The notes under the pieces are model-generated. The model searched no databases. It saw only the letters and a list, made by a program, of their open reading frames with translations, and was not told where the DNA came from. Below are positions 1,219 to 23,244 of a stretch of 35,573 nucleotides of DNA, piece after piece (position 1 is the stretch's first letter; each line of letters starts with the position of its first letter). Origin of the DNA: Rickettsiales bacterium (GTDB lineage Bacteria > Pseudomonadota > Alphaproteobacteria > UBA8366); contig PBOZ01000043.1 in the NCBI GenBank assembly GCA_002724555.1, forward strand, positions 1 to 35,573, given 5' to 3'. A program made the translations under genes and the position numbers.

Positions 1219-2091
1219 CTATAAATTCGCGTATCGCTCAATCGTTTCACGCCACTTCAGTAAGTCTTCAGGGCCTTCGATCCCACGATCTTTGACACCG
1301 GCTAATCCAACGACCGGCACCATCATGCGGGTGACTCCGGCTTGGGCGAGTGGCACCATTTCTGCCTCGTCCTCCGGCATATTTGTGACAATCTCAATGT
1401 TATTCGGGTCGCGGCCCGCTTCCTCTGCTGTCTCGCGGACCAGGTAACCCAACTCGTGCACGAACTCCCGAGCTGGGAAAAATCCGTCGCCGAGGCGTCC
1501 CGCACGCCTCGCTGCCGCCTTCGAATGTCCGCCAATGATGATCGGCACGGCACCATTTGCGGGACGAGGGCGGCAATGCACCCTCTCGAACGCAACGAAT
1601 TCGCCATGATAGGTCGGCAGATCGGATGTCCAAAGTTCACGCATCGCTTCGATATACTCGTCTGTGCGTTTACCACGTCGTTCGAACGGCACGCCCAGCG
1701 CCTCGAATTCCTCCGGCATCCAACCAACGCCCACTCCCAGTAACACACGTCCACCTGACATTTGATCCAAAGTCGCTATCTGCTTAGCAGTCGTGATCAG
1801 TTGGCGTTGTGGCAAGACAAGCACACCGGTACCAAGCTTTAAATTCTTTGTCGCCGCGGCGACATAGGTCATCCAAACGATAGCGTCCGGGCGTGAGTTG
1901 CTCGGCACGCCCGAACTCATCCGGCCGTCTTCGGAGTAAGGATAGTTCGGGGCGTAATTTTCCGGAACCACGACGTGGTCGATCGTCCACATTGATTCAA
2001 ACCCCGCCTCCTCAGCCGCTTGCGCCAGCTCCACGGCTTTCGATGCATCGACGTATTGATTTGTGTTGCAGTATCTGAGACCGAATTGCAT
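1219..2091 (-). CDS. LLM-class oxidoreductase, Rv2161c-like (predicted F420-dependent)
   Basis: A 290-residue TIM-barrel protein of the luciferase-like monooxygenase superfamily. Diagnostic patterns are the first strand MQFGLRYCNT, WTIDHVVVPENY (35-46), LGTGVLVLPQR (86-96), SGGRVLLGVGVGWMPEEFE (112-130) and PIIIGGHSKAAARRAGR (183-199). The GVGVGW..EEFEALG..FERRG.R.DE pattern is that of predicted F420-dependent oxidoreductases like Mycobacterium Rv2161c, which usually transfer hydride between F420 and an alcohol, aldehyde or activated alkene. Its start lies 4 bp past the stop of the closely similar upstream gene, so the two are probably co-transcribed and translationally coupled. Cofactor choice (F420 or FMN) is inferred from subfamily pattern and from the F420 operon nearby; the substrate is unknown. 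Confidence 0.88.
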   Translation of the reverse strand: MQFGLRYCNTNQYVDASKAVELAQAAEEAGFESMWTIDHVVVPENYAPNYPYSEDGRMSSGVPSNSRPDAIVWMTYVAAATKNLKLGTGVLVLPQRQLITTAKQIATLDQMSGGRVLLGVGVGWMPEEFEALGVPFERRGKRTDEYIEAMRELWTSDLPTYHGEFVAFERVHCRPRPANGAVPIIIGGHSKAAARRAGRLGDGFFPAREFVHELGYLVRETAEEAGRDPNNIEIVTNMPEDEAEMVPLAQAGVTRMMVPVVGLAGVKDRGIEGPEDLLKWRETIERYANL

Positions 2092-2095
2092 AGAT

Positions 2096-2968
2096 TTATG
2101 CGTCTCGGTATTGGTCGATAATATCGGTCCAACGGGCTAGGTCGTCTGGTCCGCTGGCCGCCGAGCCCTTAAGCCCGATCATCGGCACGATGGGCAGCAA
2201 GACGCGATCCACACCTGCTTTGACCAGTTCAGGCAAGTCTTCAACCCGCTCCGGCATGCTAACGGTAAACTCAATCGCGTTCGGATCGCGGTCGTGTTCT
2301 TCCGCTGTCCTTTTCGCCAGATCGAACAAATCGGTCGGGACGCCGCGCGCCGGGAAAAACCCGTCACCAAGACGCCCGGCACGTCGCGCCGCCGCTTTGG
2401 AGTGGCCACCAACGATAATCGGCACCGAACCGTTGACCGGCTTCGGTTGCATGTGCGCCCCTTTGAAACTAAAGAACTCACCCTCATAGGTCGGGAGGTC
2501 CGACGACCAGAGTTCGCGCATCACACCTATATATTCATCGGTCGCGCGGCCGCGCGCCTCAAACGGTGCTTTGATGGCGGCGAACTCCTCTTCCATCCAG
2601 CCCACACCAATGCCAAGCAGCACACGGCCGCCGCTCATGAAATCTAAGGTCGCGACCTGTTTTGCCGCCACAATCGGATTTCGCTGCGGGACGATCAGGA
2701 TACCGGTGCCAAAATTGATCTTTTCCGTCCGGGCAGCGACATAACTCATCCAAATGAGCGGGTCGGGCAACGGGATATCGTTCTTGCCGCCGGCCATCTT
2801 GCCATCGTCGGTATAGGGATAAGCGGACTGGTAACCTTCTGGGACAACAACGTGATCAACTGTCCAGGCAGATTCAAAACCGGCAGCTTCCGCCGCCTGC
2901 ACCAACTCGACCGCGTTCTCCGGCTTCGTGTAACGCGCCGTGTTACAGTATCGGACCCCAAACTTCAT
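2096..2968 (-). CDS. LLM-class oxidoreductase, tandem paralogue of the next gene
   Basis: A 290-residue LLM-family protein starting MKFGVRYCNT. By hand alignment 39 of its first 61 residues match the neighbouring protein at 1219-2091, so the pair looks like a tandem duplication. The same landmarks occur: WTVDHVVVPEGY, FGTGILIVPQR, SGGRVLLGIGVGWMEEEF and PIIVGGHSKAAARRAGR. I chose the ATG at 2968, which overlaps the upstream LLM stop as ATGA and follows a GAGG ribosome site; the longer reading from 2983 adds only five residues (MCEAE). Predicted F420-dependent by subfamily resemblance to Rv2161c-type enzymes. Differences between the copies are concentrated in the active-site loop region around residues 45-70, which would fit divergence in substrate. 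Confidence 0.88.
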   Translation of the reverse strand: MKFGVRYCNTARYTKPENAVELVQAAEAAGFESAWTVDHVVVPEGYQSAYPYTDDGKMAGGKNDIPLPDPLIWMSYVAARTEKINFGTGILIVPQRNPIVAAKQVATLDFMSGGRVLLGIGVGWMEEEFAAIKAPFEARGRATDEYIGVMRELWSSDLPTYEGEFFSFKGAHMQPKPVNGSVPIIVGGHSKAAARRAGRLGDGFFPARGVPTDLFDLAKRTAEEHDRDPNAIEFTVSMPERVEDLPELVKAGVDRVLLPIVPMIGLKGSAASGPDDLARWTDIIDQYRDA

Positions 2969-3885
2969 TTCAGCCTCGCACAAAGTTCAAATAGTTCTTC
3001 AATTGCTTTGAATTGATTACCTTGGGCTGAAGACGGCACCAGGATCGGCGTCTTGATACCAGCGTCATACCAAGCCTCGAGCCCTTCCAGAACTTTGGAC
3101 GGCGGCCCAAAAAGTGTGTTGTCGGAGAGCCAACGTTCACTCAAGCACTTGCCGATTTCTTCCGGGTCATTGCCGTTTGCAATCGCTTTCTCGACACTAG
3201 CCATCTCTTCTTCGTAGCCCGCTTCCTTCCAATAATTCCGATAGTTCGACAACTGCGCATAATGGGTCAGCGTCTTACGGTTAACCGCCGCCGCCGTCGC
3301 CTCGTTCTCATAGATGCAGGTCGGGATCATGTCGCCGATAAAGAAGTTTGTGTCGTTCCGCTTTTCCACCGGTACTTCTGCCAACGAAATGGCCATGTGA
3401 GAGCGGGCGCCGTTTGCGAACACCATGCCCTCGGCAATCTCAGCTGCCAGTCCAATCATTTTCTTGCGGAGCGTCGCCAGCACGATCGGCGGCAACTCGC
3501 CGATCATCTTGGCGCTACGAACTGTCGAAACGAAATCGCGAATATCAGACAGGGGCTTGCCGACTGTCACACCGTAGCGCGAGTGCGAAGGCGCATGCGC
3601 TACGCCAATGCCAAACTTGAACCGGCCATTCGAAAGCTCGTGAATAAAGGCCGCATGCTGCGCCAAGTCAAGTGGCGCCCGGAAGTAGATTGGGCAAATC
3701 GACGTGCCAAACTCGATCTTATCCGTCGCCATCGCCAACGCGGTCGCAAGCGCCATGTTGTCGCCGAGTGAAGGCATGTAGATACCCGAAAAGCCGCGCT
3801 CCTCTGCCTCCTTTGCAAATTCAATAATCCGATGGCGGCGGCTTGGAACTGCGGCCAATGATATAGCGGGCATCTCGATGGGCAT
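2965..3885 (-). CDS. LLM-class oxidoreductase (divergent)
   Basis: A 306-residue LLM-superfamily protein, first gene of a three-LLM run read on the minus strand. It shows AKEAEERGFSGIYMPS, a short second segment ATDKIEFGTSICPIYFRAPLDLAQ, ELSNGRFKFGIGVAHAPSHSRYG (the GxG strand and the following loop) and a C-terminal FGPPSKVLEGLEAWYDAGI, a segment common in LLM oxidoreductases. It lacks the long insertion between strands 2 and 3 seen in its two downstream neighbours and the final PIIxGG strand is replaced by PIVLATLRKKM. It overlaps the next gene by four bases (ATGA). The family fits either F420 or FMN; no closer assignment is made. Confidence 0.8.
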   Translation of the reverse strand: MPIEMPAISLAAVPSRRHRIIEFAKEAEERGFSGIYMPSLGDNMALATALAMATDKIEFGTSICPIYFRAPLDLAQHAAFIHELSNGRFKFGIGVAHAPSHSRYGVTVGKPLSDIRDFVSTVRSAKMIGELPPIVLATLRKKMIGLAAEIAEGMVFANGARSHMAISLAEVPVEKRNDTNFFIGDMIPTCIYENEATAAAVNRKTLTHYAQLSNYRNYWKEAGYEEEMASVEKAIANGNDPEEIGKCLSERWLSDNTLFGPPSKVLEGLEAWYDAGIKTPILVPSSAQGNQFKAIEELFELCARLK

Positions 3886-3910
3886 CTACTTTCCTCTCAC
3901 ACAAAACCAT

Positions 3911-3977
3911 CCTTCCCGCGCAGGCGGGAAACCAATTCGGCGCCCGGTGTTTCTCGATTCCCGCCTGCGCGGGAAGG
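3911..3977. repeat. Perfect 20-bp inverted repeat, REP/MITE-like intergenic element
   Basis: The 20-bp arms at 3911-3930 and 3958-3977 are exact reverse complements, separated by 27 bp. Each arm is itself imperfectly palindromic around TTCCCGC...GCGGGAA. The element lies between two divergently transcribed LLM genes. Such GC-rich palindromic units are commonly dispersed in proteobacterial genomes; only one copy of this form is visible here. It could form a strong hairpin in the leader of the downstream + strand LLM gene. Confidence 0.75.
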
Positions 3978-4060
3978 ACGGAAGGTTGTCTGTATTCATT
4001 AGACGCCAATTTAAGTATGAACTTAGACGTTCAAACGCCTCGGGACAGGGAGCATTCACG

Positions 4061-4909
4061 GTGCATATCGGATTTTTTAGCTACAACACGGAATACGGCA
4101 TTCGGGCGGACGACCTAGCGCAAGAGCTTGAGGACCGCGGTTTTGAGTCGCTCTGGGTGGGCGAGCATACGCATATTCCAGCGAGCCGAGAAACCTCCTT
4201 CCCTGGCGGCGGCGATCTGCCGAAGCCCTACTATCACATGAGCGACCCTTTTGTGACCCTTGGGATGGCCGCCGCGGTCACCAAGAAACTCCTACTCGGC
4301 ACAGGTATCAGCCTCGTGGTCGAACATCACCCGATATCGTTAGCAAAACAGGTGGCAACACTCGACCACTATTCGGGCGGCCGGTTTCTCTTTGGCATTG
4401 GTGGCGGTTGGAATAAGGAAGAGATGGAAAACCACGGCTTTCCCTTCGATCGACGCTGGAAGCTGTTACGCGAACGCGTCGAAGCGATGAAAGAGATCTG
4501 GACCGAGGACGAAGCTAGTTACGATGGGGAGTTCGTGAATTTTGAGCGTATTGTCTCTAACCCCAAACCATCACAACACCCACACCCGCCGGTTTTCATG
4601 GGGGGCGCCACCGACATGTCACTCAAACGAGTCGCACGTTATTGCGAAGGATGGATGCCAATCGACGTCTTGCTCCGCGACCCCAGCGCCATGGTTGCGA
4701 AAATGCGCCAGGTCGTCAGCGAAGAAGGTCGAGACCCGGACGAAATTGAACTTTCCGCCTTCTGCCAACGCTCCCGCGACGGCGACGCACTCAAAAAATT
4801 CCGCGCGGCAGGCTTCACCCGCGCCATTGTCGGCTTACCCAATCGCGACCGCGACGAGGTTCTAAAATTTATCGATGGTTATGTAGGATTGGGCGAAGAG
4901 ATCGGGTAG
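4061..4909 (+). CDS. LLM-class oxidoreductase, Rv2161c-like (predicted F420-dependent)
   Basis: A 282-residue LLM-family protein. The start is taken as GTG at 4061, ten bases after an AGGGAG ribosome site, because the protein then begins on the first barrel strand (HIGFFSYNTEYG). The open frame runs back to 3878, but that stretch reads through the palindromic repeat at 3911-3977 and is unlikely to be translated. Motifs: RGFESLWVGEHTHIP, LLGTGISLVVEHHPISLAKQ, SGGRFLFGIGGGWNKEEMENHG, RWKLLRERVEAMKEIWT and PPVFMGGATDMSLKR. GGGWN.EE..NHG is characteristic of predicted F420-dependent LLMs of this group. It is divergent from the three LLMs to its left. The substrate is unknown. Confidence 0.87.
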   Translation: MHIGFFSYNTEYGIRADDLAQELEDRGFESLWVGEHTHIPASRETSFPGGGDLPKPYYHMSDPFVTLGMAAAVTKKLLLGTGISLVVEHHPISLAKQVATLDHYSGGRFLFGIGGGWNKEEMENHGFPFDRRWKLLRERVEAMKEIWTEDEASYDGEFVNFERIVSNPKPSQHPHPPVFMGGATDMSLKRVARYCEGWMPIDVLLRDPSAMVAKMRQVVSEEGRDPDEIELSAFCQRSRDGDALKKFRAAGFTRAIVGLPNRDRDEVLKFIDGYVGLGEEIG

Positions 4910-4986: not shown

Positions 4987-5481
4987 CTACTTCCGCGTTA
5001 TCTTAATCTGGCGGCCTAAGTTCTTCGGCAACGGCAAGTCTTTCTGAGCTTCAAAGATAGCTCGGATACGTTCATAAATTTCCCGCGGAAAGGGCGACAC
5101 CTTCCGAACCGACATATCGATGTGGAGCGTAATCGCTTCCGCCTCGGCGGCGAGATAGCCTTTATCAGCGTGATACATTTCTTGCCAATAATGAAAGCGT
5201 TTCTCGTCACAATCGATGATGCGGTATGTAAACCGCAAGAGATCGCCTTCCATCACCTCTTGCACATAACGAATATGATAGTCGCCGACGAAGGTCCCAA
5301 TATTGTTCGCCTTCCGATATTCGTTGGTAAAGCCAATGGATCTTGCGACCGCACCCGCGGCCTCATCGAATGCCGTTAAATAGAACGCCACGTTCATGTG
5401 ACCATTATGATCGATCCACTCGGGACGAACGCGTTCAGTATGAATTTCTAAAGGGTCAGCAACTTCGAGAGTATCAGGCAT
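4987..5481 (-). CDS. Hotdog-fold acyl-CoA thioesterase (4HBT-like)
   Basis: A 164-residue protein of the 4-hydroxybenzoyl-CoA thioesterase-like hotdog family. The signature is WIDHNGHMNVAFYLTAFDEA (residues about 22-41), where the aspartate and the G-H-x-N turn match the catalytic segment of the family; RYVQEVMEGDLLRFTYRI and HYWQEMYH follow on the central strands. Such proteins hydrolyse acyl-CoA thioesters in the cytoplasm. The length is slightly above the usual 130-150 residues, from a charged C-terminal tail. It is divergent from the CoA-transferase gene at 5597, 115 bp away, which suggests shared regulation and a role in releasing CoA in the same pathway. No strong ribosome site precedes the ATG. 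Acyl specificity is unknown. Confidence 0.85.
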   Translation of the reverse strand: MPDTLEVADPLEIHTERVRPEWIDHNGHMNVAFYLTAFDEAAGAVARSIGFTNEYRKANNIGTFVGDYHIRYVQEVMEGDLLRFTYRIIDCDEKRFHYWQEMYHADKGYLAAEAEAITLHIDMSVRKVSPFPREIYERIRAIFEAQKDLPLPKNLGRQIKITRK

Positions 5482-5596: not shown

Positions 5597-6802
5597 ATGG
5601 GATACAGCGCACCTTTCGCAGGATTAACCGTATTGGATTTGAGCCAAGGGATCGCGGGGCCCTATTGCGGGATGCTCCTCGCGCAGCAGGGGGCTAACGT
5701 CATAAAAGTCGAACCGGTCAACGGCGGCGATTGGGCACGAGCCCTCGGCATCTCCTATGAAGGGCAAACAGCCTACTCGATCACCGGCAATATCGGCAAA
5801 CGCAGCCTCGCCCTCGACCTCAAGAGCAATGACGGTATTGAAATTTTGTGGCGGTTGGCGAAACAAACAGATGTCTTCATGGAAGGGTACCGACCCGGCG
5901 TGATCTCGCGGCTCGGCTTTGGTTACAAAAGTCTTTCGCAACGAAATCCGGGGGTTATCTATCTTTCGGTCTCCGGTTTCGGGCAAATGGGACCGCTGGC
6001 AGAGCGTCCGGCACTCGACCCGGCCCTCCAAGCGCTTACCGGCATGATGAATTCGAACAGAGGCGAGGATGGCGTCCCACACCGCGTCATGTTCATCCCC
6101 GTCGACATGGCAACCGGCCTATATTCGTTTCAAGCTCTCTCCTCTGCACTTTACGCCCGACGCGACGAAGAGAAGGGATGTTATATCGACAACTCGCTTA
6201 TGCGGTCAGGCTTGGCATTGCAAAGCGTCCGGTTAATCGCCAACACACTCGAGGGTGGTGAGATGACACCGGGCGCTTCACCACATGGGGTTTTCTCAAC
6301 ACAGGACGGCTGGATTACCCTGGTCGTTCTCCGCAATTCGGAGTTTGCACCGTTTTGCAAAGCAATAGAGCGCCCCGAATTCGCGGATGACGAAAGATTT
6401 TCGAACGCAGTCAAACGCCACCAACATGCTGCAATATTAACCCCCGCAATAAACGAAGCAATGTCCACGCAACCCTCCCTCTATTGGTCCGACCGTCTGA
6501 AAGAAGTCGGTATCGTGCATGAAATTCTGTATGAGTATCAGGAATTCCTTGAGCATCCTCAGGCTAAGGCAGATAACGCCGTTAGCTGGCTGAACCAGCC
6601 GGGCCTATCGGGGCCGGCACCGGTCCCCAACCTCGCAGGTATCATACCGCCTGTGAATGGATCGGCGCGTGGTACCGCGCCCCTCCTCGGACAGCATTCA
6701 CGGGAAATCCTCGAAGAACTCGATTTCGCTGCAGAGCACATCGAGAGCCTCGCCCAGGACGGAGTGATTGCCGGACCGGATTTACCGACGGTAAACGCTT
6801 GA
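5597..6802 (+). CDS. Class III (CaiB/BaiF) CoA-transferase
   Basis: A 401-residue family III CoA-transferase. It opens with GLTVLDLSQGIAGPYCGMLLAQQGANVIKVEP (family N-terminus, about 9-40), continues with KRSLALDLKSNDG, ENF-like VFMEGYRPGVISRLGFGY and SVSGFGQMGP, and has the expected catalytic aspartate at Asp170 in PVDMATG. The family moves CoA between carboxylic acids (for example succinyl-CoA or formyl-CoA donors) through an aspartyl-CoA thioester. It is preceded by a CTGGAGG ribosome site and followed at close spacing by two MaoC-type proteins and an LLM, so it probably activates the substrate for that set. The substrate acid cannot be told from sequence. Confidence 0.9.
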   Translation: MGYSAPFAGLTVLDLSQGIAGPYCGMLLAQQGANVIKVEPVNGGDWARALGISYEGQTAYSITGNIGKRSLALDLKSNDGIEILWRLAKQTDVFMEGYRPGVISRLGFGYKSLSQRNPGVIYLSVSGFGQMGPLAERPALDPALQALTGMMNSNRGEDGVPHRVMFIPVDMATGLYSFQALSSALYARRDEEKGCYIDNSLMRSGLALQSVRLIANTLEGGEMTPGASPHGVFSTQDGWITLVVLRNSEFAPFCKAIERPEFADDERFSNAVKRHQHAAILTPAINEAMSTQPSLYWSDRLKEVGIVHEILYEYQEFLEHPQAKADNAVSWLNQPGLSGPAPVPNLAGIIPPVNGSARGTAPLLGQHSREILEELDFAAEHIESLAQDGVIAGPDLPTVNA

Positions 6803-6866: not shown

Positions 6867-7352
6867 GTGGCCGACGAAGTAAAAATGCCAGTTGAGGGAT
6901 CGCACATCATGATGTTTGCGCGCTCGTTACTGGACGAGAACCCCATCTACAGCGACGCGGATTATGCAGCAGGAACCGAAACGGGAAGTGTTATCGCCCC
7001 GCCGACTTTCGGTCGATCCGTTGCCCAATTCGATCCAAACTACCACCTCCGTTTGAAATCCGGTGAGAAATGGTTCGGCTCAGGCAAGAACCCGACAGGC
7101 CTCGATGGCCCCGCGCCTTCAACCGGCGGCCTGCATGCGGAACAGCATTACGAATATCACCGTCATTTGAAGCCCGGGGACCAACTGACGATGACGTCGG
7201 CGCCCGGTAAGACATGGGAGAAACAAAGCAAACGTGCCGGTCTCCTAAAATTTACAGAGACCGTTTTCGAGTTCCGCGATCAAGACGGCGAACTGGTCCT
7301 CACCATGCGCTCGGTCGGTGTGAAGACCGAAAAGCCGGTCGAACAGAGCTAA
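6867..7352 (+). CDS. MaoC/FAS1-like dehydratase domain protein
   Basis: A 161-residue single-hotdog protein resembling the N-terminal, FAS1-like MaoC dehydratase half of two-domain enoyl-CoA hydratases. Visible landmarks are APPTFGRSVAQFDP, GGLHAEQHYEYHRHLKPGDQL (residues about 90-110, where HAEQ.YEYHR..KPGD is common in this branch), and a final strand RAGLLKFTETVFEFRDQDGELV. A GTG start at 6867 follows AAGGAGA. It lies nine bases upstream of a second MaoC protein carrying the canonical hydratase motif, so the two are probably a heterodimer hydrating or dehydrating an enoyl-CoA/3-hydroxyacyl-CoA, as in split actinobacterial hydratases. This subunit alone may not be catalytic. Confidence 0.82.
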   Translation: MADEVKMPVEGSHIMMFARSLLDENPIYSDADYAAGTETGSVIAPPTFGRSVAQFDPNYHLRLKSGEKWFGSGKNPTGLDGPAPSTGGLHAEQHYEYHRHLKPGDQLTMTSAPGKTWEKQSKRAGLLKFTETVFEFRDQDGELVLTMRSVGVKTEKPVEQS

Positions 7353-7361: not shown

Positions 7362-7787
7362 ATGATGGCACTTAACGCAAAAGATTTGAACCCCGGCGAC
7401 GAGCATAGCGAAATCGTTGTCGAGGATTTGAGCCGTACCCAATTAGTCATGTATTCAGGTGCATCGGGCGACTACAACCCGCTGCACACCGACGAAGTCT
7501 ACACGACGGAAGTAGCGGGTTATCCCAGTGTGTTCGCCCATGGCATGCTAACGATGGGCCTGACCGGCAAAATGCTGACAAACTATGTTGGCGACGGTCG
7601 GCTGACCAAATTCGGTGTCCGCTTCACCAATCAAGTTTGGCCAGGTGACACCTTGACTGCGACTGCGGTGGTCACTGAGATCCGCCAAGAAGGTGACGAA
7701 AGACTTGTCGACCTGGACGTCAAAACGACGAACCAAGACGGCACGGCCGTTGTCAGCGGCTACGCAACCGCTAAAGTCGACGGTTAG
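7362..7787 (+). CDS. MaoC-type (R)-specific enoyl-CoA hydratase subunit
   Basis: A 141-residue MaoC-like hydratase. The hydratase-2 active-site pattern is clear in SGASGDYNPLHTDEVYTTEVAGYPSVFAHGML: the Asp and His of D-x4-H (GDYNPLH) and the following HGM loop at about residues 36-64. A C-terminal overhang GVRFTNQVWPGDTLTATAVV is typical. The start could be either of two adjacent ATGs (7362, 7365), behind GGGAGAG. It forms an operon with the CoA-transferase at 5597 and the FAS1-like MaoC protein just upstream, and is probably the catalytic half of a heterodimeric hydratase acting on CoA thioesters. Substrate chain or ring is not determinable. Confidence 0.88.
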   Translation: MMALNAKDLNPGDEHSEIVVEDLSRTQLVMYSGASGDYNPLHTDEVYTTEVAGYPSVFAHGMLTMGLTGKMLTNYVGDGRLTKFGVRFTNQVWPGDTLTATAVVTEIRQEGDERLVDLDVKTTNQDGTAVVSGYATAKVDG

Positions 7788-7871: not shown

Positions 7872-8921
7872 ATGAAACTCGGACTATCGGTCGGCTATTC
7901 CGGCGCACAAATGGAGTTGCCCGTCGAGCGAATACTGCGGGCGGAGAAACTTGGCTACGACAGCGTCTGGACAGCCGAAGCTTACGGTTCCGACGCCATC
8001 ACGCCGTTGGCCTATCTTGCAGCCATCACCAAGCGGATCAAGCTCGGCACCGGCATTATTCAGGTTTCCGCCCGCACACCGGCCAACTGCGCCATGAGCA
8101 TGGGAACGGTAGACGCACTCGCGGGCGGCGGTCGCTGTATTGCGGGGCTCGGCGTCTCGGGTCCACAGATCGTCGAAGGCTGGTACGGCCAACCTTGGGG
8201 CCGGCCTTATTATTGGCTGAAAGACTACGCCACCATCATGCGCAAAATATGGAAGCGCAAGGAAGGCCTAACCCACGACGGTAAACAATTACAGCTTCCT
8301 TATTCGGGCGATGACGGGCTTGGCGTCGGTAAACCACTGAAATCGATCTTGCACATGAACCCGGATATTCCGATTTATATCGGGTCCGGCAACGAGGCGA
8401 CGGTGCGCCTCACGGGCGAGATCGCCGACGGTTGGCTGCCACTCGGCTTCTATCCCGGCACGATGGACGAGTATAAACCGTGGCTCGAAGAAGGGTTCAA
8501 GCGCGCCGGAAACGGCAAAGGGTGGAACAATTTCGAAATCCAGGCCCGTGTCTTCGTTGATGTCGATGAGGACGTCAAAGCCTCCATCGACCGGCTCAAA
8601 CCGCGTGAGGCACTTTATATCGGCGGAATGGGCCACAAAGATAAAAATTTTCATAAGGACATTTTCGTCCGGCGCGGATTTCAGGCTGAAGCCGACCGCA
8701 TCCAGGAACTTTATCTTGCCGGACATAAGGAGGAGGCCATCGCGACGGTGCCTGACGAGTGGATCGACTCGCGCGGATTAATGGGACCGCCCAACCGGAT
8801 CAAACAACGCTTCAAAGCCTGGGAAGATTCAGGTGCGAACAGCCTGACTGTCGCCCCAGCACAAGAGGCTGCCGTCGACCTTATGGCGGAACTCGCGCGC
8901 CTTAATCCGCCGCGGGATTAG
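7872..8921 (+). CDS. LLM-class oxidoreductase, Rv3520c-like (predicted F420-dependent)
   Basis: A 349-residue LLM-family protein. SVWTAEAYGSDAITPLAYLAAITKRIKLGTGI, the GLGVSGPQIVEGWYGQPWGRP segment and IPIYIGSGNEATVRLTGEIADGWLP match the subfamily of mycobacterial Rv3520c, predicted to use F420. The stretch GPQ.VEGWYG.P.GRP is nearly diagnostic. The ATG lies behind an AGAGGGA ribosome site. Its 3' end overlaps by 20 bp the 3' end of the convergent MFS gene. A second member of the same subfamily lies at 11896-12942. Placement after CoA-transferase and MaoC genes suggests a CoA-thioester substrate, which is an inference only. Confidence 0.9.
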   Translation: MKLGLSVGYSGAQMELPVERILRAEKLGYDSVWTAEAYGSDAITPLAYLAAITKRIKLGTGIIQVSARTPANCAMSMGTVDALAGGGRCIAGLGVSGPQIVEGWYGQPWGRPYYWLKDYATIMRKIWKRKEGLTHDGKQLQLPYSGDDGLGVGKPLKSILHMNPDIPIYIGSGNEATVRLTGEIADGWLPLGFYPGTMDEYKPWLEEGFKRAGNGKGWNNFEIQARVFVDVDEDVKASIDRLKPREALYIGGMGHKDKNFHKDIFVRRGFQAEADRIQELYLAGHKEEAIATVPDEWIDSRGLMGPPNRIKQRFKAWEDSGANSLTVAPAQEAAVDLMAELARLNPPRD

Positions 8922-10951: not shown

Positions 10952-11105
10952 TTTGAGTGCCCTTACGCCACCGAAAATCAAAATGAGCAACCCCTTCCAT
11001 CCGGGATTGTGTACGCTCTTTCACAATTTCCTTTTCAAACTCCCTAACAATCGAAATAACGGCCTTCAATTGAATTTTGATCGCCTTGAGAACTGGGTTG
11101 GACAT
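10944..11105 (-). CDS. Small conserved-looking protein of unknown function, 53 residues
   Basis: A 53-residue basic and amphipathic protein beginning MSNPVLKAIKIQLKAVISIV. The ATG at 11105 follows an AAAGGAGAACGAGG ribosome site, as strong as any in the window. It begins 13 bp past the stop of one SDR gene and overlaps the next SDR start by eight bases, exactly the spacing expected of an operon member. A helical N-terminal half (AIKIQLKAVISIVREFEKEIVKE) precedes a short basic tail. No known family is recognised, and no signal peptide or true membrane helix is seen. It could be a partner of the adjacent dehydrogenase or a coupling leader; evidence is positional only. Confidence 0.6.
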   Translation of the reverse strand: MSNPVLKAIKIQLKAVISIVREFEKEIVKERTQSRMEGVAHFDFRWRKGTQSE

Positions 11106-12942: not shown

Positions 12943-13118
12943 TTTTCGATCCTTCCGATATATCATGACCCTCTTTAACAAAGACGGCCCTTGAGAGCTT
13001 ATTCGAATTTAGCCTAGATAACCGCGAAAGCTAGATTACGTAGGTCTTGCAGCCACCTAAAACACATCAAATACTGGCGGCAACCTATCCTCGAAACAAT
13101 CAATTGGAAAACGTACGA
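12943..13118. promoter_or_regulatory. Divergent intergenic region between an LLM operon and the F420 operon
   Basis: This 176-bp gap must hold promoters for both the minus-strand LLM/SDR operon and the + strand npdG-cof operon. A weak candidate for the + direction is TTGAGA at 12991-12996 with TAGATA at 13015-13020 (18-bp spacing), but only three bases of the -10 match consensus. No convincing operator palindrome was recognised. Confidence 0.3.
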
Positions 13119-16205: not shown

Positions 16206-18653
16206 ATGTCCAAACCCACAGAATATAAGCGTCCAGAAAGAAACGCAGCTCGTTTGCTCGCCAAACGGACCGATCTCTCCCAAATGATGGTGGAAGCATC
16301 CGAATTGCGTGACCTGCATTTTGGCAGAACGATCACTTATTCGCGTAAAGTTTTCATCCCACTCACCAAATTATGCCGCGATGTCTGCCATTATTGCACC
16401 TTCGCACAACCACCCCGAAATCTTGAGGAGGCGTTCCTCTCACCAGAACAAGTTTTAGAAATCGCCCGTGATGGGGCGGCAGCTGGATGTAAAGAAGCGT
16501 TATTCACGCTCGGCGATAAACCAGAACTGCGCTATCAAGCGGCGCGAGATGCGCTGGCCTCCTTCGGGCACGAAACGACATTGTCATATCTTCGCGAAAT
16601 GGCTCTTTTAGTTTTTGAAGAAACTGGGCTTCTGCCACATTTGAACCCAGGCGTGTTGGAGGCAAACGATTACGCTGCACTACGCGAAGTTTCCGCCAGT
16701 ATGGGGGCGATGCTAGAGAGTACATCAGCCCGCCTATTACAAAAAGGTCACTGTCACTACGGATCGCCAGATAAAGATCCTGAAGTTCGTATCGCTTCCA
16801 TGGCAGAAGCGGGGCAGCAAGGAGTGCCTTTCACAAGCGGAATCTTAATTGGGATCGGTGAAACACGTCTGGAACGTATTGAATCCCTACTAGCGCTTCG
16901 GGACCTGAACGACCTTTATGGTCACATTCAAGAAATCATCATACAGAACTTCCGGGCCAAGCCAGATACGTTAATGGCCAAGGCGCCAGAACCCTCGCTT
17001 GAGGATCTACAATGGACGATTGCGGCTGCACGCCTGCTGTTTGGCCCGAAGATGTCGATACAGGCCCCACCGAACCTAAGTGGCGAGAATGCAGCTGACC
17101 TTATTCCGGCTGGCATTAATGACTGGGGCGGCGTCTCGCCAGTCACGCCCGATCACGTCAATCCGGAAGCACCCTGGCCGCACCTGGCTGCTTTATCGCA
17201 AGCGACCGCCCGGCAGGACAAAATTTTAGTTGAGCGGCTGGCTGTATATCCCGAATATATTTTTGATGGTGAAACTTGGCTTGACGTTGCCTTCCGCTCA
17301 GAGATCCTAAGGCGGATCGATAGCGATGGCCTAGCGCGAACGGACAATTGGTCTCCAGGGATAGGCGAGGGCAATCCGATACCAATGCCAATGATTGCAC
17401 CAGACCTTGGCGCAAGCTCTGAGCTTAATGATATTCTTGCGCGCGGGGATGAGGGTGACGACCTCACAGAACGCGAAATAATTCGTCTCTTCGCCGCGCG
17501 CTCTGGCGAAGTCGACGAAATCGCAAGTGTAGCGAACAATATCCGCCAACGGGTCAACGGCGATGCGGTTAGCTACGTTGTTAATCGGAATATCAACTAC
17601 ACCAACGTCTGCTACTTTGGCTGTAAGTTCTGCGCATTTTCAAAGGGCAAAACCCATGAGGCCCTGCGTGGCAAACCTTACGATTTAGCGATGGGTGAGA
17701 TTATCCGACGGGCCGAAGAAGCCTGGGACCGCGGAGCAACTGAAGTATGCCTACAGGGAGGCATTCACCCAGATTATACCGGTGAGACCTATTTAGAGAT
17801 TCTGCGGGCTATTAAATCAGCATTACCCGAGATGCACGTTCACGCCTTTACACCGCTAGAAGTTTTTCAAGGCGCTAAGACGCTTGATCTAACGCTAGAC
17901 ACCTATCTCGGAATGTTGCGCGACGAAGGCCTGGGTACCTTGCCTGGGACCGCTGCGGAAATTCTAGATGACGAAGTCCGCGCAACGCTTTGCCCTGACA
18001 AAATCAACACGAACCAGTGGCTTGAAGTAATGGAAACGGCGCACGGCCTTGGCCTTCGCAGTACCGCCACCATCATGTTCGGCCATATCGAGCGTCCAGT
18101 TAATTGGGCGCGTCACCTTTTGCGCCTTCGTGATCTACAGAGGCGAACCAATGGCTTCTCAGAACTCGTCCCACTGCCCTTTGTTCATATGGAGGCCCCT
18201 ATTTATTTGAAAGGTGCCGCGCGCAAGGGACCCAGCTGGCGCGAAACTTTGTTGATGCACGCCATCTCGCGCATCGCATTACATCCGTATTTTACGAACA
18301 TACAAACTTCTTGGGTGAAGCTCGGCGCTGATGGTCTTGCAGCTTGCCTCGATGCTGGCTGTAATGACGTTGGCGGAACTCTTATGAACGAGACGATCAC
18401 ACGTGCAGCCGGTGCTGCACACGGCCAGGAGATGCCACCGATACAAATGGAAGTGATCATCCGCGGTGCGGGCCGCAAACCACGACAGCGCACAACGCTT
18501 TACGGAGACGCGCCCGAAATACAACGCACACGTTCTTTCGACGCAGCACCAGTCACACCGATTGTGGAGACCCCCCTCCGGCGAAATGGCAGAAATCAGG
18601 GACGCGGTACGCTCGTGCGCCCTGGCCTTAACGTGCCAAGCGCTGCCGAATAA
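16206..18653 (+). CDS. fbiC: Fused Fo synthase (CofG-CofH), radical SAM
   Basis: An 815-residue fused 7,8-didemethyl-8-hydroxy-5-deazariboflavin (Fo) synthase. The N-terminal CofG half carries CRDVCHYC (Cys57, Cys61, Cys64), and the C-terminal CofH half carries CYFGCKFC (Cys469, Cys473, Cys476); both are CxxxCxxC [4Fe-4S]/SAM clusters. Other marks are NLSGENAADLIPAGINDWGGVSPVTPDHVNPE in the first half and VCLQGGIHPDYTGETYLEIL in the second. It joins tyrosine and 5-amino-6-ribitylaminouracil to form Fo, the deazaflavin of F420. The fused form is the actinobacterial arrangement; methanogens use separate proteins. A 34-bp gap follows cofC, without a strong ribosome site, and an LLM gene follows after 47 bp. 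Confidence 0.95.
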   Translation: MSKPTEYKRPERNAARLLAKRTDLSQMMVEASELRDLHFGRTITYSRKVFIPLTKLCRDVCHYCTFAQPPRNLEEAFLSPEQVLEIARDGAAAGCKEALFTLGDKPELRYQAARDALASFGHETTLSYLREMALLVFEETGLLPHLNPGVLEANDYAALREVSASMGAMLESTSARLLQKGHCHYGSPDKDPEVRIASMAEAGQQGVPFTSGILIGIGETRLERIESLLALRDLNDLYGHIQEIIIQNFRAKPDTLMAKAPEPSLEDLQWTIAAARLLFGPKMSIQAPPNLSGENAADLIPAGINDWGGVSPVTPDHVNPEAPWPHLAALSQATARQDKILVERLAVYPEYIFDGETWLDVAFRSEILRRIDSDGLARTDNWSPGIGEGNPIPMPMIAPDLGASSELNDILARGDEGDDLTEREIIRLFAARSGEVDEIASVANNIRQRVNGDAVSYVVNRNINYTNVCYFGCKFCAFSKGKTHEALRGKPYDLAMGEIIRRAEEAWDRGATEVCLQGGIHPDYTGETYLEILRAIKSALPEMHVHAFTPLEVFQGAKTLDLTLDTYLGMLRDEGLGTLPGTAAEILDDEVRATLCPDKINTNQWLEVMETAHGLGLRSTATIMFGHIERPVNWARHLLRLRDLQRRTNGFSELVPLPFVHMEAPIYLKGAARKGPSWRETLLMHAISRIALHPYFTNIQTSWVKLGADGLAACLDAGCNDVGGTLMNETITRAAGAAHGQEMPPIQMEVIIRGAGRKPRQRTTLYGDAPEIQRTRSFDAAPVTPIVETPLRRNGRNQGRGTLVRPGLNVPSAAE

Positions 18654-18700: not shown

Positions 18701-19645
18701 ATGACGGTAGGTATCGGCTTGGGCCTTTCAAATTATACCTTTTCATCCGCTGGTGGTTATTGGGACTGGGTGCATATGTGCGACGACGAAGGCGTCGACT
18801 CCATCTGGCAGACAGACCGCCTCGTCTCTCGTGAGCCATTTCTTGAATGCATGAGCGCCATGGCTGCCCTGGCGGGTGCCACAAAAAAATTAAAGTTTGG
18901 CATGAACGTCGCATCTTTGGGCATTCGCGACCCACTTATCACGGCTAAGGAATGTGCAACCATCGACTACCTGTCTAACGGTCGTCTGCTTCCTGCCTTT
19001 GGCCTTGGCAGCAACCGATCGCGCGACTGGATTGCTAGCGGTCGAGCAACCAAAGCCCGCGGCCAGCGAATGAACGAGGCACTGGAAATCATAACACGCC
19101 TCTGGAAAGAGGAAAAAGTGACCTTTGAGGGAAAACATTTTCAATACACAGAGGCAACGATCTCTCCTCGCCCGGCCCAGGATCCGCTTCCCTGCTGGAT
19201 CGGTGGCAGCGCTCGAGCTGCGGTTGAGCGAACCGTCAACTATGGCACAGGATGGCAGGCATCTTTCCAAACTCCTGAAGAAGCAGGCAAAGTTGTAGCC
19301 GACATAATGCAGTACGCCAAGGAGAAGGGTAAACACATGGACCCAGATCACATGGGCATGGGTTTCGGTGTCCGCTTCGGCTCCTGGGATGATCCCATCG
19401 TGCAGCAAGCCGCATCTGCTTTTGAGAAACGCAGTGGCCGGGATCCAAAAACCGGCATGGCGGTCGGCGACGCAGAAGATATTCTTGAGATGATCTGGAG
19501 CTATATTCCACACGGACTTTCCAAGTTCATCCTTCGCCCCCTCGGCGATGGCGATGAGGAAATGATGGCGCAATCTCGCCGAATAATCGACGAAGTTCTG
19601 CCTCACGCCAAAGTTTTCACGGAACGTCGCAAGATGGCAAGCTGA
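18701..19645 (+). CDS. LLM-class oxidoreductase in the F420 operon
   Basis: A 314-residue LLM-family protein starting MTVGIGLGLSNYTFSS, behind GGGAGA. Barrel landmarks: DEGVDSIWQTDRLVSREP, LKFGMNVASLGIRDPLITAKECATIDYLSNGRLLPAFGLGSNRSRDW, EALEIITRLWKEEKVTFEGKHFQY and PLPCWIGGSARAAVERT. The segment NGRLLPAFGLGS corresponds to the SGGR..xGxG strand. It differs from the Rv2161c- and Rv3520c-like proteins here and is not given a subfamily. Because it lies just after fbiC (47 bp) and before the NUDIX gene (19 bp), it belongs to the biosynthesis transcript, so it is the strongest candidate for an F420-dependent enzyme with a housekeeping role, or one acting on the cofactor itself. Confidence 0.88.
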   Translation: MTVGIGLGLSNYTFSSAGGYWDWVHMCDDEGVDSIWQTDRLVSREPFLECMSAMAALAGATKKLKFGMNVASLGIRDPLITAKECATIDYLSNGRLLPAFGLGSNRSRDWIASGRATKARGQRMNEALEIITRLWKEEKVTFEGKHFQYTEATISPRPAQDPLPCWIGGSARAAVERTVNYGTGWQASFQTPEEAGKVVADIMQYAKEKGKHMDPDHMGMGFGVRFGSWDDPIVQQAASAFEKRSGRDPKTGMAVGDAEDILEMIWSYIPHGLSKFILRPLGDGDEEMMAQSRRIIDEVLPHAKVFTERRKMAS

Positions 19646-19664
19646 GGCGATTTCGTCAAAACAT

Positions 19665-20093
19665 ATGGCGTCTCAAGAGACATTTGTAGCCCAATCAGGG
19701 ATTATCCCATATAGGAACAAGGGCAAGGACCTCGAGGTTTTACTTATAACTTCTGTCGGCAGCAGTCGCTGGATACTCCCAAAAGGTCATATCGAAGATG
19801 GAATGTCGCCTAGAGAATCTGCCACCAAGGAAGCTCTCGAAGAAGCTGGCGTCAACGGCACGGTTTCAACTAAAAAAATTGGTGATTACACATATAGTAA
19901 AAAGGAAAAGAAAAACGGACCAATTTATAAAGTCGATATTTACGCAATGCATGTAAATTTTGAACTCGAAATTTGGCCGGAAGAAGGCGAACGGCGACGT
20001 AAATGGATGCCGATACAAGAGGCCATAAAATCAGTCAATGAGAAGGGACTGCGGAGTGTCATCCGTCACTTCTCTGAGTTAATGGGAAAGTAA
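19665..20093 (+). CDS. NUDIX hydrolase, DIPP-like
   Basis: A 142-residue NUDIX protein. SRWILPKGHIEDGMSPRESATKEALEEAGV holds the NUDIX box at residues 41-63: Gly41, Glu56, Glu59, Glu60 and Gly62 are kept, while position 7 of the box is Met instead of Glu and position 15 is Lys instead of Arg. Departures at position 7 also occur in the RWxxPKG branch, which includes diadenosine and diphosphoinositol polyphosphate hydrolases. It lacks a signal peptide. As last gene of the F420 operon, 19 bp after the LLM, it may remove toxic nucleotide by-products (for example of CofC chemistry), but this is positional inference; the true substrate could be any nucleoside diphosphate derivative. Confidence 0.88.
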   Translation: MASQETFVAQSGIIPYRNKGKDLEVLLITSVGSSRWILPKGHIEDGMSPRESATKEALEEAGVNGTVSTKKIGDYTYSKKEKKNGPIYKVDIYAMHVNFELEIWPEEGERRRKWMPIQEAIKSVNEKGLRSVIRHFSELMGK

Positions 20094-20171: not shown

Positions 20172-21047
20172 TTACTCATTCAATTTTCTATCCACTGCAG
20201 GATCGAGCATCTCGCTGACATAGTGGTTGCCGAAACCGGCGTCGTTGACGCGTTTTAGTGAATCCAATACACCGTCTACAAGCATTGTCTTCCGCCCCAG
20301 ACTCTCAGCAAACTCGGCAAAGTATCGGATGTCTTTCCAGGAATTCGAAAGTGAAAATTCATGCCCTCGATAGTTGCCTTGCATCGCCGGCGTGATCATT
20401 TTTTCAAAAGTACCGGATTTAGCAGCTCCGCCGGACATGGCCATGTGTAGTTTTGTCCAATCGACACCTGCCTGTCGCGCGATGCTGTAGGACAAAGCTA
20501 AGAGCTGGCCCGTTGACTGGGTGACGAAATTGTTCATCAATTTTGCGGTGTGTCCCATACCCGTTGACCCGAAATGGAGTATAGTTGTGCTGTAGGATTG
20601 AATTAATGGTTTAACCCGATTAAACACTCCTTCCTCTGCACCAACTAGGCTTGTCAACTCACCGAGCGCTGCCTTTTCTGGATTGGCTGTTACCGGCGCG
20701 TCAACGAAATCAACACCAATAACTCTTAGTTCCTGATCAACCCGCATAGTCGATTGCGGGCATGCCGTCGTCGCATCAACGATGGTTTGTCCTGCGCGCA
20801 GATCAGGTTTTAACTGAGCGATAACGTTTTCGACAACTTCCGAGTCGCTGAGACATAAAAATATTACTTCACTCGCATGCGACAGGCTCGACAAGGTCTC
20901 AACTTCCAGCGCGCCCTTTCCTACCAAGTCATCTACTGGTGCACGATTGCGATGGGCGATGATCGTCAAATTATTTCCTGACTTCATCAGGTTTTCCGCC
21001 ATGCCGTGTCCCATTAAACCAACGCCAATAAATCCGACCTTAGTCAT
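20172..21047 (-). CDS. 3-hydroxyisobutyrate dehydrogenase-family oxidoreductase
   Basis: A 291-residue beta-hydroxyacid dehydrogenase. The N-terminal GFIGVGLMGHGMAENLMKSG gives the GxGxxG dinucleotide loop (8-13), DAPVTANPEKAALGELTSLVG corresponds to the substrate loop (usual form DAPVSGG.xGA..GTL), and GHTAKLMNNF carries the catalytic lysine. It oxidises or reduces 2- or 3-hydroxy acids with NAD(P). The substrate loop departs from the common form, which may point to an unusual hydroxyacid. The ATG follows GAGGG, and the gene is divergent from an LLM (21118). The convergent gap to the NUDIX gene is 78 bp without an obvious terminator. 6-phosphogluconate-type or tartronate-semialdehyde reductase activity cannot be excluded. 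Confidence 0.88.
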   Translation of the reverse strand: MTKVGFIGVGLMGHGMAENLMKSGNNLTIIAHRNRAPVDDLVGKGALEVETLSSLSHASEVIFLCLSDSEVVENVIAQLKPDLRAGQTIVDATTACPQSTMRVDQELRVIGVDFVDAPVTANPEKAALGELTSLVGAEEGVFNRVKPLIQSYSTTILHFGSTGMGHTAKLMNNFVTQSTGQLLALSYSIARQAGVDWTKLHMAMSGGAAKSGTFEKMITPAMQGNYRGHEFSLSNSWKDIRYFAEFAESLGRKTMLVDGVLDSLKRVNDAGFGNHYVSEMLDPAVDRKLNE

Positions 21048-21117
21048 TCACCCTCATCCTTTTCAGTTCTCGACCTATTATAGATCTAGCGATCAAACGA
21101 CTGGAGGCGAAAACTAT

Positions 21118-21972
21118 ATGGACATCGGAATCGTAATGCCTTGTTCAGCAATTACCCCGCCCGACTTAATTGCCGAAACCGCTAGGGCAATTGAAGAACG
21201 GGGCTTCGCATCGATCTGGGCACCAGAGCACGTCATCTTCTTCGAGGAATACCAGTCTCAATACCCTTATGCGGACCACGGTAAGCTTCACGGCTTTGAC
21301 CACGGTATGATGGAACCATGGACAACCTTGAGTTTCATCGCGTCGAATACCAGTCATGTAAAACTGGGTTCAAGTATCTGCCTCGTGCCGCAACGCAATC
21401 CGGTATATACCGCCAAACAAGTTGCCGACGTCGATTTTCTCTCAAATGGGCGCGTAATCTTTGGTGTTGGTGCCGGCTGGCTTAAAGAAGAGTTTGACGC
21501 ACTGCAGGTTCCATTCGAACGTCGGGGTGCCCGCACTCGTGACTATATAAAAGTCATGCAAGCGCTCTGGACAATGGAGCAGCCATCTTACACAGGTGAG
21601 TTCTATAAACTCCCCAACTGCACCCAAAGTCCAAAGCCGGTTCAAAATCCGCATCCCCCGATATTTTTTGGCGGAGAAAGTCGGCCCGCACTCCGGCGTG
21701 TTGCCGAACTCGGACAAGGTTGGATGGGCGCAAGCCTGATGCCGGAAGATTTACCCGAGAAGATTGCGCTTCTAGATGAACTCCTTGCCGAAGCAGGACG
21801 AAACCGAGGCGACATAGACATCTACACATTGCCAAACCAAGCGCCAAAAGCGGAACTCTTTCCTCGATACGAAGACTTGGGCGTAAAGCAAGTCATACAT
21901 CTGGTGCCTATGAAGAATATCGACGACGTCCGCCAACGACTCGATACATTAGTAAAAATATCTATGAGATAG
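21118..21972 (+). CDS. LLM-class oxidoreductase, Rv2161c-like (predicted F420-dependent)
   Basis: A 284-residue LLM-family protein. The frame is open from 20947, but ATG at 21118 follows a TGGAGG ribosome site and starts the barrel (MDIGIVMPCSAIT), so it is chosen. Motifs: RGFASIWAPEHVIFFEEY, KLGSSICLVPQRNPVYTAKQVADVDFLSNGRVIFGVGAGWLKEEFDAL (GVGAGW..EEF), FERRGARTRDYIKVMQALWT and PPIFFGGESRPALRR. It belongs with the 1219, 2096 and 4061 proteins in the Rv2161c-like group. A divergent start with the hydroxyacid dehydrogenase at 20172-21047 (70 bp apart) suggests a shared promoter region. An AT-rich hairpin follows the stop codon directly. Confidence 0.88.
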   Translation: MDIGIVMPCSAITPPDLIAETARAIEERGFASIWAPEHVIFFEEYQSQYPYADHGKLHGFDHGMMEPWTTLSFIASNTSHVKLGSSICLVPQRNPVYTAKQVADVDFLSNGRVIFGVGAGWLKEEFDALQVPFERRGARTRDYIKVMQALWTMEQPSYTGEFYKLPNCTQSPKPVQNPHPPIFFGGESRPALRRVAELGQGWMGASLMPEDLPEKIALLDELLAEAGRNRGDIDIYTLPNQAPKAELFPRYEDLGVKQVIHLVPMKNIDDVRQRLDTLVKISMR

Positions 21973-22085
21973 TATATATTAAATATTTTTATTTAATTAT
22001 TATTATAATATCATTATTTATTATAAATTCATTGTTTATTATTAATATTTAATTTTATATTCAAATGATGATATTTTAAAAAATT
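21973..22085. other. Very AT-rich intergenic segment
   Basis: A stretch of about 113 bp with almost no G or C, made of TATTA, TTATTA and AATATT runs, in a window that is otherwise balanced. No ORF, RNA gene or known element is seen. A near-inverted pair occurs at AATATCATTA (about 22007) and TGATGATATT (about 22066). Together with the following 22086-22215 stretch, which is ordinary in composition, it forms a 243-bp gap between two LLM genes that converge. Confidence 0.6.
21978..21997 (+). terminator. AT-only stem-loop just after the LLM stop codon
   Basis: ATTAAATA at 21978-21985 and TATTTAAT at 21990-21997 are perfect 8-bp complements around a TTTT loop, five bases past the stop of the LLM gene. 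The stem lacks G-C pairs, so it would be weak as an intrinsic terminator and the call is tentative. Confidence 0.3.
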
Positions 22086-22215
22086 ATGCAGCCCCAAGAA
22101 AGAAGTCTGACTCACAAAAACATAAACTCCGCATTAAAGAGATACCGGTTTGAGACCGACATTCGGAACCACTCAGCAATTGATAAAAATTGCCTGATCA
22201 CTATTTAGGGTCGCA

Positions 22216-23244
22216 TTACAAACCATTCCTAACTTTGGGCGCTACCTCGGCAGCGAACAAACGCATACAATCCAAAGTCACTTCCTGCGGCATACCCGCC
22301 CAATCCATGCTCATAATGAGGTGATTCGTTCCAACTTTTCGGTGCAAATCAATGATCTGCTCCGCGACCTCATCAGGTGAGCCAAGCAAAAACCGGTCTC
22401 CAATTAAATCATCAAAGGCTTGATCAAATTTGCTGTCATCATCTGGCAGCTCATCGCTCTGTCCCCAATCAATATAATTTTCGTATTTGCCCGCGAGGTA
22501 CGGACCGCACAACCGAAGTGCTTCAGCCTTCGACGGTGCCACGAAAACTTCACGCCGCATAGGAAGCTCGTCGGGGAAGGGTTTGCCTGCCGCATCAAGG
22601 GCTTTTTTATATATTTCCATCTGACGAACGATTGTCGATATCTCACTATGAGGGTTGATATACCAGCAATCTCCCATACGGGCCGCACGTTCGATTGCCG
22701 GATCCGCATTCGCGCCTATCCAAATTGGTGGATATGGATTTTGTAATGGCTTCGGTAGACATGTCGCACCGTCAAGTTCAAAATGAGAACCGCACATGTC
22801 GACTACTTCCTCGGTCCAAAGGCGTTTTATTGCGATCAAATTCTCTTCAAACCGCCTCGCGCGTTCGCTTCGGTTGGTACCAAACGCCTTCAACTCAACT
22901 TCACGATACCCAAGCGCTGCCCCGACGATCAATTTGCCACCGCACATTACGTCGATCGTAGCGAGTTGCTCTGCAATATCTAAAGGCTTCTGCAAAGATA
23001 GTAGAATGATACCGGCATTCAGACGCATGTTCGGTGCCTCGGCCGATAACCGCGCTAGAATTGGGAACTGTTGAAATGCCTGATACGGGGCAGTGCTATA
23101 ATGCGACGTCTTAGTCAGAGAGTCATAGCCAAGCTCATCGGATAAACGCACCACTTCGAGCAAGTCCTCAAATTTTTGGGTTATATCCGCTTCCATCGGA
23201 TATTGTGTGCGCAAAGCTAATCCAAATTGAAATTTCTTAGCCAT
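22216..23244 (-). CDS. LLM-class flavin- or F420-dependent oxidoreductase
   Basis: A 342-residue LLM-family protein. The second ATG (23244, MAKKFQFG) is preferred to 23250, since AGGG then lies eight bases upstream. Segments: ELGYDSLTKTSHYST, NMRLNAGIILLSLQKPLDIAEQLATIDVMCGGKLIVGAALGYREVELKAFG, RARRFEENLIAIKRLWTEEVVDMCGSHFEL and PPIWIGANADPAIERAARMGDCWYI. GGKLIVGAALGYR.VE is typical of LLMs often annotated flavin-dependent, and F420 is less certain than for the other LLMs here. It starts 18 bp downstream of an exported metallophosphoesterase, both on the minus strand. A flavodoxin-like reductase divergent from that gene could supply reduced FMN if this is a two-component enzyme. Confidence 0.87.
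   Translation of the reverse strand: MAKKFQFGLALRTQYPMEADITQKFEDLLEVVRLSDELGYDSLTKTSHYSTAPYQAFQQFPILARLSAEAPNMRLNAGIILLSLQKPLDIAEQLATIDVMCGGKLIVGAALGYREVELKAFGTNRSERARRFEENLIAIKRLWTEEVVDMCGSHFELDGATCLPKPLQNPYPPIWIGANADPAIERAARMGDCWYINPHSEISTIVRQMEIYKKALDAAGKPFPDELPMRREVFVAPSKAEALRLCGPYLAGKYENYIDWGQSDELPDDDSKFDQAFDDLIGDRFLLGSPDEVAEQIIDLHRKVGTNHLIMSMDWAGMPQEVTLDCMRLFAAEVAPKVRNGL

Follow-up and report, generated by a model that had tools for sequence, protein, structure and literature searches.

We propose that the 35,573-nucleotide stretch of contig PBOZ01000043.1 analysed here (the window, to whose positions all coordinates refer) carries a composite F420 island. The organism is an uncultured member of a marine alphaproteobacterial genus whose luciferase-like monooxygenase (LLM) genes have expanded. 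A complete operon for F420 biosynthesis stands among nine LLM genes packed into 22 kb, and most of their products would depend on F420. On balance we favour a history in three layers: a portable operon core that replaced the family's own, a relict of a gene array (LLM9), and genes added at the level of the genus. The density of the LLM genes, the synteny of the locus, the conflict between the tree of its F420 proteins and the kinship of its host, and the co-occurrence of three LLM types with F420 biosynthesis carry this reading.

The F420 operon and the nine LLM genes

A Pfam profile search places nine open reading frames (ORFs) of family PF00296 between 1219 and 23250, at 124-246 bits against a cut-off of 27.9, so that all nine belong to the LLM superfamily at the Pfam gathering cut-off. 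Between the sixth and the seventh lies the operon npdG-cofE-cofD-cofC-fbiC. It comprises npdG/fno for an NADPH:F420 reductase (13047..13799; TIGR01915, 219 bits), cofE for the F420-0:L-glutamate ligase (13810..14577; TIGR01916, 279 bits), the cofD transferase (14574..15527; TIGR01819, 310 bits), the cofC guanylyltransferase (15524..16171; TIGR03552, 153 bits) and fbiC, a cofG-cofH fusion for FO synthase (16206..18653; NF006687, 1138 bits). All lie on the plus strand and all five pass their NCBIfam equivalog cut-offs; the bacterial set of cofC, cofD, cofE, cofG plus cofH and an F420 reductase is thus complete. Only 47 bp separate fbiC from LLM7, and 19 bp separate LLM7 from a NUDIX hydrolase gene (19665..20093, plus strand; PF00293, 49 bits), short gaps which suggest that the operon probably extends through both genes.

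An earlier note, made from the sequence alone, had described nine LLM genes of at least three subfamily patterns around this operon, and both statements are borne out. Four pass the F420-LLM model TIGR03619, namely LLM1 (1219..2091, minus strand; PF00296 210 bits, TIGR03619 264 bits), LLM2 (2096..2983, minus; 194 and 244 bits), LLM4 (3878..4909, plus; PF00296 188 bits from residue 77) and LLM8 (20947..21972, plus; PF00296 185 bits from residue 70, TIGR03619 250 bits). Two pass TIGR03559, the Rv3520c type: LLM5 (7872..8921, plus; 363 bits against a cut-off of 335) and LLM6 (11896..12981, minus, divergent from npdG; 382 bits). The remaining three, LLM3 (2965..3885, minus; PF00296 124 bits), LLM7 (18701..19645, plus; PF00296 140 bits) and LLM9 (22216..23250, minus; a PF00296 match), pass no curated subfamily cut-off. 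Alignments with relatives of LLM4 begin at about residue 54-64 of its longest ORF, where the true start probably lies; that of LLM8 is probably near 21118. The 5' part of the LLM4 ORF (3878-4040) translates to ...PVFLDSRLRGKDGR... and looks like a translated intergenic repeat, not an enzyme.

Each of the nine has its own position in a tree that also includes the genome's remaining LLMs and those found at related F420 loci. LLM1 groups with LLM2 as its sister (support 99), LLM5 and LLM6 fall in one small group, and the rest stand apart. A single cluster formed by recent tandem duplication was therefore rejected; only LLM1 and LLM2 look like a tandem pair.

Which cofactor would these enzymes use? 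F420 synthesis is known here from gene content alone, and 385 Alphaproteobacteria genomes were divided into 57 with cofE over the cut-off, taken as F420 makers, and 328 without. Relatives of LLM9 (E<=1e-50) are present in 19 of the 385, all 19 of them F420 makers, and in none of the 328 genomes without cofE. Relatives of LLM6 and LLM4 (both at E<=1e-40) are present in 25 and 24 of 40 F420 makers, respectively, and in 0 of 40 non-makers; when only genomes of 3.4 Mb or more are counted, the figures are 18/24 versus 0/15 for LLM6 and 17/24 versus 0/15 for LLM4. At family depth two control genes taken from the window, the CoA-transferase CaiB2 and an Old Yellow Enzyme (OYE) gene, are not exclusive to F420 makers (39/40 versus 18/40, and 22/40 versus 15/40, the latter with an F420-negative set chosen for larger genomes). 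The eight best Protein Data Bank (PDB) matches of an AlphaFold model of LLM6 are all F420-dependent Mer. Taken together, distribution and structure suggest that most of the nine LLMs use F420.

It could be argued instead that the LLMs are mainly monooxygenases dependent on reduced flavin mononucleotide (FMNH2), of class C and of the type II Baeyer-Villiger or alkanal type, and that their proximity to the F420 operon is incidental. The closest structural matches to the model of LLM9 (pLDDT 88.4) are RslO1, 2i7g and luciferases, all flavin monooxygenase-type, and the nearest sequences are of the same kind. The best sequence match of LLM1 is a luciferase, an FMN_red-like gene (24286-24783, under the Pfam cut-off) and the OYE gene lie nearby, and LLM paralogues of SAR202 have been read as monooxygenases (PMC5395668, PMC6946804). 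However, flavin monooxygenases are the nearest solved structures for LLM9 and not for LLM6, whose model ranks with Mer. Relatives of LLM4, LLM6 and LLM9 occur in none of the tested non-F420 genomes, although other LLM candidates do, and six of the nine LLMs pass NCBIfam models named F420-dependent. We consider a mainly FMNH2-dependent set unlikely. The F420 dependence put forward in the earlier note gains indirect support from the co-occurrence of three LLM types and from the Mer-like model of LLM6, and is qualified by the flavin-type fold of LLM9.

Origin of the operon and conservation of its surroundings

The F420 proteins of the window are closer to those of a set of alphaproteobacterial loci (L033-L038) than to those of the organism's own family. 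FbiC is 88% identical to its counterpart in 'Rhodospirillaceae bacterium' SP8 and 81% to that of Alphaproteobacteria bacterium UBA6544. A SAR202 origin of the window was considered and rejected, as the nearest FbiC relatives are alphaproteobacterial metagenome-assembled genomes (MAGs). In a tree of the five concatenated F420 proteins the genus is sister to L033-L036 and L038, and constraining the family to group together, with membership set by GTDB kinship and the topology test run after the tree had been seen, lowers the log-likelihood by 423 units (p-AU 8e-45). In this genus the F420 operon native to the family was probably replaced horizontally. At L034, L036 and L038 a divergent LLM6 gene lies upstream of the operon and LLM7 downstream; relatives of LLM7 that are 61-86% identical follow fbiC at these three loci and in a second genome of the window's genus (G006). 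The simplest reading is that LLM6, the operon and LLM7 moved as a block in place of the resident operon.

Within the genus, G007 is collinear with the window from LLM1 to fbiC, up to the contig end, at 77-97% identity (89% for LLM1, 91% for LLM2), and G006, represented by an 8-kb contig only, retains the end of short-chain dehydrogenase 2 (SDR2; 11119..11886, minus; PF13561, 191 bits) and the genes from LLM6 to NUDIX. The full layout was found only here: the family's four remaining genera have neither LLM1-LLM6 nor the coenzyme A (CoA)-linked genes beside their F420 genes, and co-conservation of the whole neighbourhood, which the earlier note had made a test of its proposal, was rejected beyond genus level. 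Parts of the neighbourhood are kept more widely, namely LLM6-operon-LLM7 at the three loci above and, in a distant genome described below, LLM4 with a thioesterase and a hydratase pair.

What the related genera keep instead is an array of LLM9-type genes. Three of them (g2, g3 and g5; genomes G001-G004 and G008-G010) carry three to five such genes after fbiC, in tandem and convergent with it and 51-65% identical to LLM9, while the fourth (g4, genome G005) has different LLMs near its operon. A genus of a sister family in the order (g15 of family f3, genomes G033-G036) has two LLM9-type genes at the same position. In the LLM tree the array genes form orthologous groups by position across genera, which marks the array as old and retained. 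In the window LLM9 is convergent with fbiC and lies 3.6 kb after it, with LLM7, the NUDIX gene, a dehydrogenase gene and LLM8 in between; it is probably a relict of this array. Two side observations concern the arrays themselves. In genus g5 one member survives as short frame-shifted matches (G009:C4:234171-234608, L137; G008:C59:1899-2922, L138), so the array is either losing a member in G008 and G009 or is affected by assembly errors there. At L168 (G036:C25:18795-21179) fbiC appears as three matches in different frames with two LLM9-type genes remaining downstream, which suggests that the FO synthase of G036 is broken or mis-assembled. Outside the order the array is mostly absent beside cofE; only weaker LLM9-like genes occur, three of them (35-36%) about 2 kb from cofE in a genome of another family (G054:C52:179-3227), an LLM group beside F420 genes.

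Some LLM types reach further. Gammaproteobacteria, too, have LLM3 (61-64%) and LLM6 (51-56%) orthologues on the flanks of their F420 operon. The LLM3 orthologue lies about 5-6 kb upstream of npdG at L060, L062, L063, L085 and L090, and in some members of the class short-chain dehydrogenase 1 of the window (10244..10990, minus; PF00106, 106 bits) has a 49-53% match on the downstream side of the F420 locus. LLM3 and LLM6 types appear to travel with F420 loci, or to gather at them, across two classes.

CoA-linked genes and LLM density

Four codirectional genes link the LLMs to CoA chemistry: a CaiB/BaiF (family III) CoA-transferase (CaiB1; 5597..6802, plus; PF02515, 324 bits), a FAS1-DH/HadA-like hydratase subunit (6867..7352, plus; PF13452, 71 bits), a MaoC/HadB-like hydratase subunit (7362..7787, plus; PF01575, 78 bits) and LLM5. 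With gaps of 64, 9 and 84 bp they form an apparent operon in which LLM5 is last. CaiB1 is under every equivalog cut-off and its nearest solved structures are formyl-CoA transferase and YfdE; those of the MaoC subunit are MaoC proteins and HadB, and for the FAS1-DH subunit a sequence search found no solved relative. A mesaconyl-CoA module and a HadAB module were both rejected, as CaiB1, FAS1-DH and MaoC lie under all equivalog cut-offs (the HadA and HadB models give 21 and 71 bits against cut-offs of 180 and 203).

The FAS1-DH gene occurs in 16 of the 385 Alphaproteobacteria genomes, spread over ten families, and all 16 are F420 makers (7e-15 if the genomes were independent, which they are not); in all 15 other genomes a MaoC gene follows. 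A distant alphaproteobacterium of another family (G270) has LLM4, a 4HBT-type thioesterase gene (4987..5481, minus, in the window; PF13279, 111 bits), FAS1-DH and MaoC in the window's order and orientation, with CaiB1 alone missing. Its LLM4 fragment is 63% identical over 76 residues before the contig end and, among the LLMs of the window's own genome, matched LLM4 only. This arrangement connects LLM4 with the hydratase pair beyond the genus. The link to CoA esters that the earlier note had suggested for a putative substrate is thus backed in part, by the apparent operon of LLM5, by the restriction of FAS1-DH to F420 makers and by the gene order in G270. Of the CoA genes it had counted in, CaiB1 and MaoC do lie within the 22 kb, and a second CoA-transferase (CaiB2; 29736..30872, minus; PF02515, 312 bits) and an acyl-CoA ligase (24797..26401, plus; PF00501, 232 bits) lie outside.

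In its strict form, that idea would unite the nine LLMs in a pathway that depends on F420 and serves just one CoA-activated compound. In its favour are the CaiB1, FAS1-DH, MaoC and LLM5 run, an apparent operon, and the collinearity of the LLM1-fbiC stretch in G007. However, the layout is not retained in the family's four other genera, the LLM lineages of the window are mostly unrelated to one another, the genes form several separate transcription units on both strands, and the F420 operon differs in history from that of the family's other genera. One locus devoted to one pathway is very unlikely, and the evidence does not bear out that part of the earlier proposal.

How unusual is the crowding itself? 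The assembly spans 2.56 Mb, is 65% complete and yields 48 LLM matches. When 48 genes were placed at random on 2.56 Mb, the maximum per 22 kb never exceeded seven in 20,000 runs; the window has nine, against three in the second-densest part of the actual genome. Within the genus the three genomes hold 48, 46 and 74 LLMs (the first two being about 65% complete), and those of the four other genera of the family 11-39. Neutral clustering, by which a genus with about 75 LLMs gathers them anywhere and the stretch is an accident without functional meaning, draws on this expansion and on small LLM groups on other contigs, but is already disfavoured to the point of seeming barely tenable, given a density maximum far above random placement and the recurrence of LLM3, LLM6, LLM7 and LLM9 types beside F420 genes in other lineages.

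The remaining genes of the 22 kb include an MFS transporter (8902..10200, minus; PF07690, 62 bits) and a dehydrogenase resembling 3-hydroxyisobutyrate or tartronate semialdehyde reductases (20172..21047, minus; PF03446, 121 bits, under the NCBIfam equivalog cut-offs). A 329-residue ORF without any Pfam or NCBIfam match (23263-24252) lies immediately upstream of LLM9 in the same orientation, 12 bp away. Near CaiB2 a protein of the arylmalonate decarboxylase/maleate isomerase family (32295-33053; PF17645), encoded directly after a glyoxalase-family gene, possibly marks a second CoA-acid module, outside the main finding.

The composite island and its known counterparts

We interpret the locus as a composite island. 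The operon would make F420, and NpdG would reduce it from NADPH, linking both pools. Most of the nine LLMs would be F420- or F420H2-dependent hydride-transfer enzymes of differing specificity rather than copies of one enzyme. The first layer would be the portable core, LLM6 and npdG-cofE-cofD-cofC-fbiC-LLM7, that horizontally replaced the family's own F420 operon. LLM9, the second, would be the remnant of the tandem array kept beside the operon in related genera. The third would consist of genus-level additions, LLM1-LLM5 and LLM8 with the CaiB1, FAS1-DH, MaoC and 4HBT genes. In the likeliest chemistry of this last layer, CaiB1 would attach a carboxylic acid to CoA, the FAS1-DH/MaoC heteromer would hydrate or dehydrate an enoyl- or 3-hydroxyacyl-CoA, LLM5 and perhaps LLM4 would catalyse an oxidation or a reduction linked to F420, and the thioesterase would free the product. 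Hydride transfer between the LLMs and F420(H2) might target the carbonyl or enoyl group of an acid, either free or bound to CoA.

Several points weigh against this interpretation. Individual co-occurrence profiles cover LLM4, LLM6 and LLM9 only among the nine, and the closest relatives of both controls, CaiB2 and OYE, are likewise found only in F420 makers. The F420 makers sampled may share a lifestyle and a gene pool with this organism; given the behaviour of the controls, a shared gene pool accounts for part of the co-occurrence pattern, and the exclusivity of FAS1-DH, whose pairs with MaoC are in other genomes mostly not beside LLMs, may therefore not be functional. The model of LLM6 is of medium quality (pLDDT 80.5). 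For LLM9 distribution points to F420 and fold to flavin, and the two disagree. Finally, the operon replacement presupposes that this genus belongs with its GTDB family and not with the genomes of L033-L038.

What are the implications of such an island? Why Proteobacteria make F420 is a listed open question (PMC8498797, which also reviews the LLHT family). The locus and its relatives yield a shortlist that tracks F420 in Proteobacteria, namely LLM4, LLM6 and LLM9 types and the FAS1-DH/MaoC pair, together with a testable CoA-ester context, and they would allow some of the marine LLM expansions, previously read as oxygen-using monooxygenases, to be interpreted in terms of F420. No description of the LLM9-type array, the apparent operon replacement or the F420-restricted FAS1-DH/MaoC pair was found in the open-licence papers searched, which also returned nothing specific on alphaproteobacterial LLM expansions or on UBA6544. 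We put forward only tentatively that the LLM9-type genes of the array form an F420-dependent subfamily, so far undescribed, whose fold is monooxygenase-like, and that the pair belongs to an equally undescribed F420-linked CoA-thioester pathway assembled in this island.

The kind of system is already known. According to PMC5395668 and PMC6946804, SAR202 (Chloroflexota) carries dozens of FMN/F420-dependent monooxygenase paralogues, up to 114 per genome, with expanded CaiB/BaiF, proposed to oxidise recalcitrant organic matter. F420 makers among Actinobacteria, including mycobacteria, have LLM paralogue expansions for which F420 and not FMN was inferred (Selengut and Haft, as cited in PMC5300114). 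The SAR202 pairing and these long-known expansions make the combination less unprecedented than the earlier note, which did not recognise it as described, had supposed. Our organism resembles SAR202 in being marine and in holding dozens of LLM paralogues. Unlike SAR202 it is an alphaproteobacterium, its nearest genome records being alphaproteobacterial MAGs, and unlike in those accounts, as far as their available text goes, its LLMs are packed around a complete F420 operon and three of their types co-occur strictly with F420 biosynthesis. With the Actinobacteria it shares many LLM paralogues alongside F420 biosynthesis; it differs in that its subfamilies are proteobacterial, including the LLM9 type, which passes no NCBIfam subfamily cut-off, and are physically linked to the operon. 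At the level of single enzymes, Mer, the F420-dependent methylenetetrahydromethanopterin reductase (PDB 8qpl, 1z69), is the nearest solved fold to LLM6, which at about 23% identity is a TIGR03559 member far under the Mer equivalog cut-off. The adjacent FAS1-DH/HadA-like and MaoC/HadB-like subunits likewise recall the heteromeric (3R)-hydroxyacyl dehydratase HadAB and related MaoC hydratases, and stand apart from HadAB in falling far under the HadA and HadB equivalog cut-offs.

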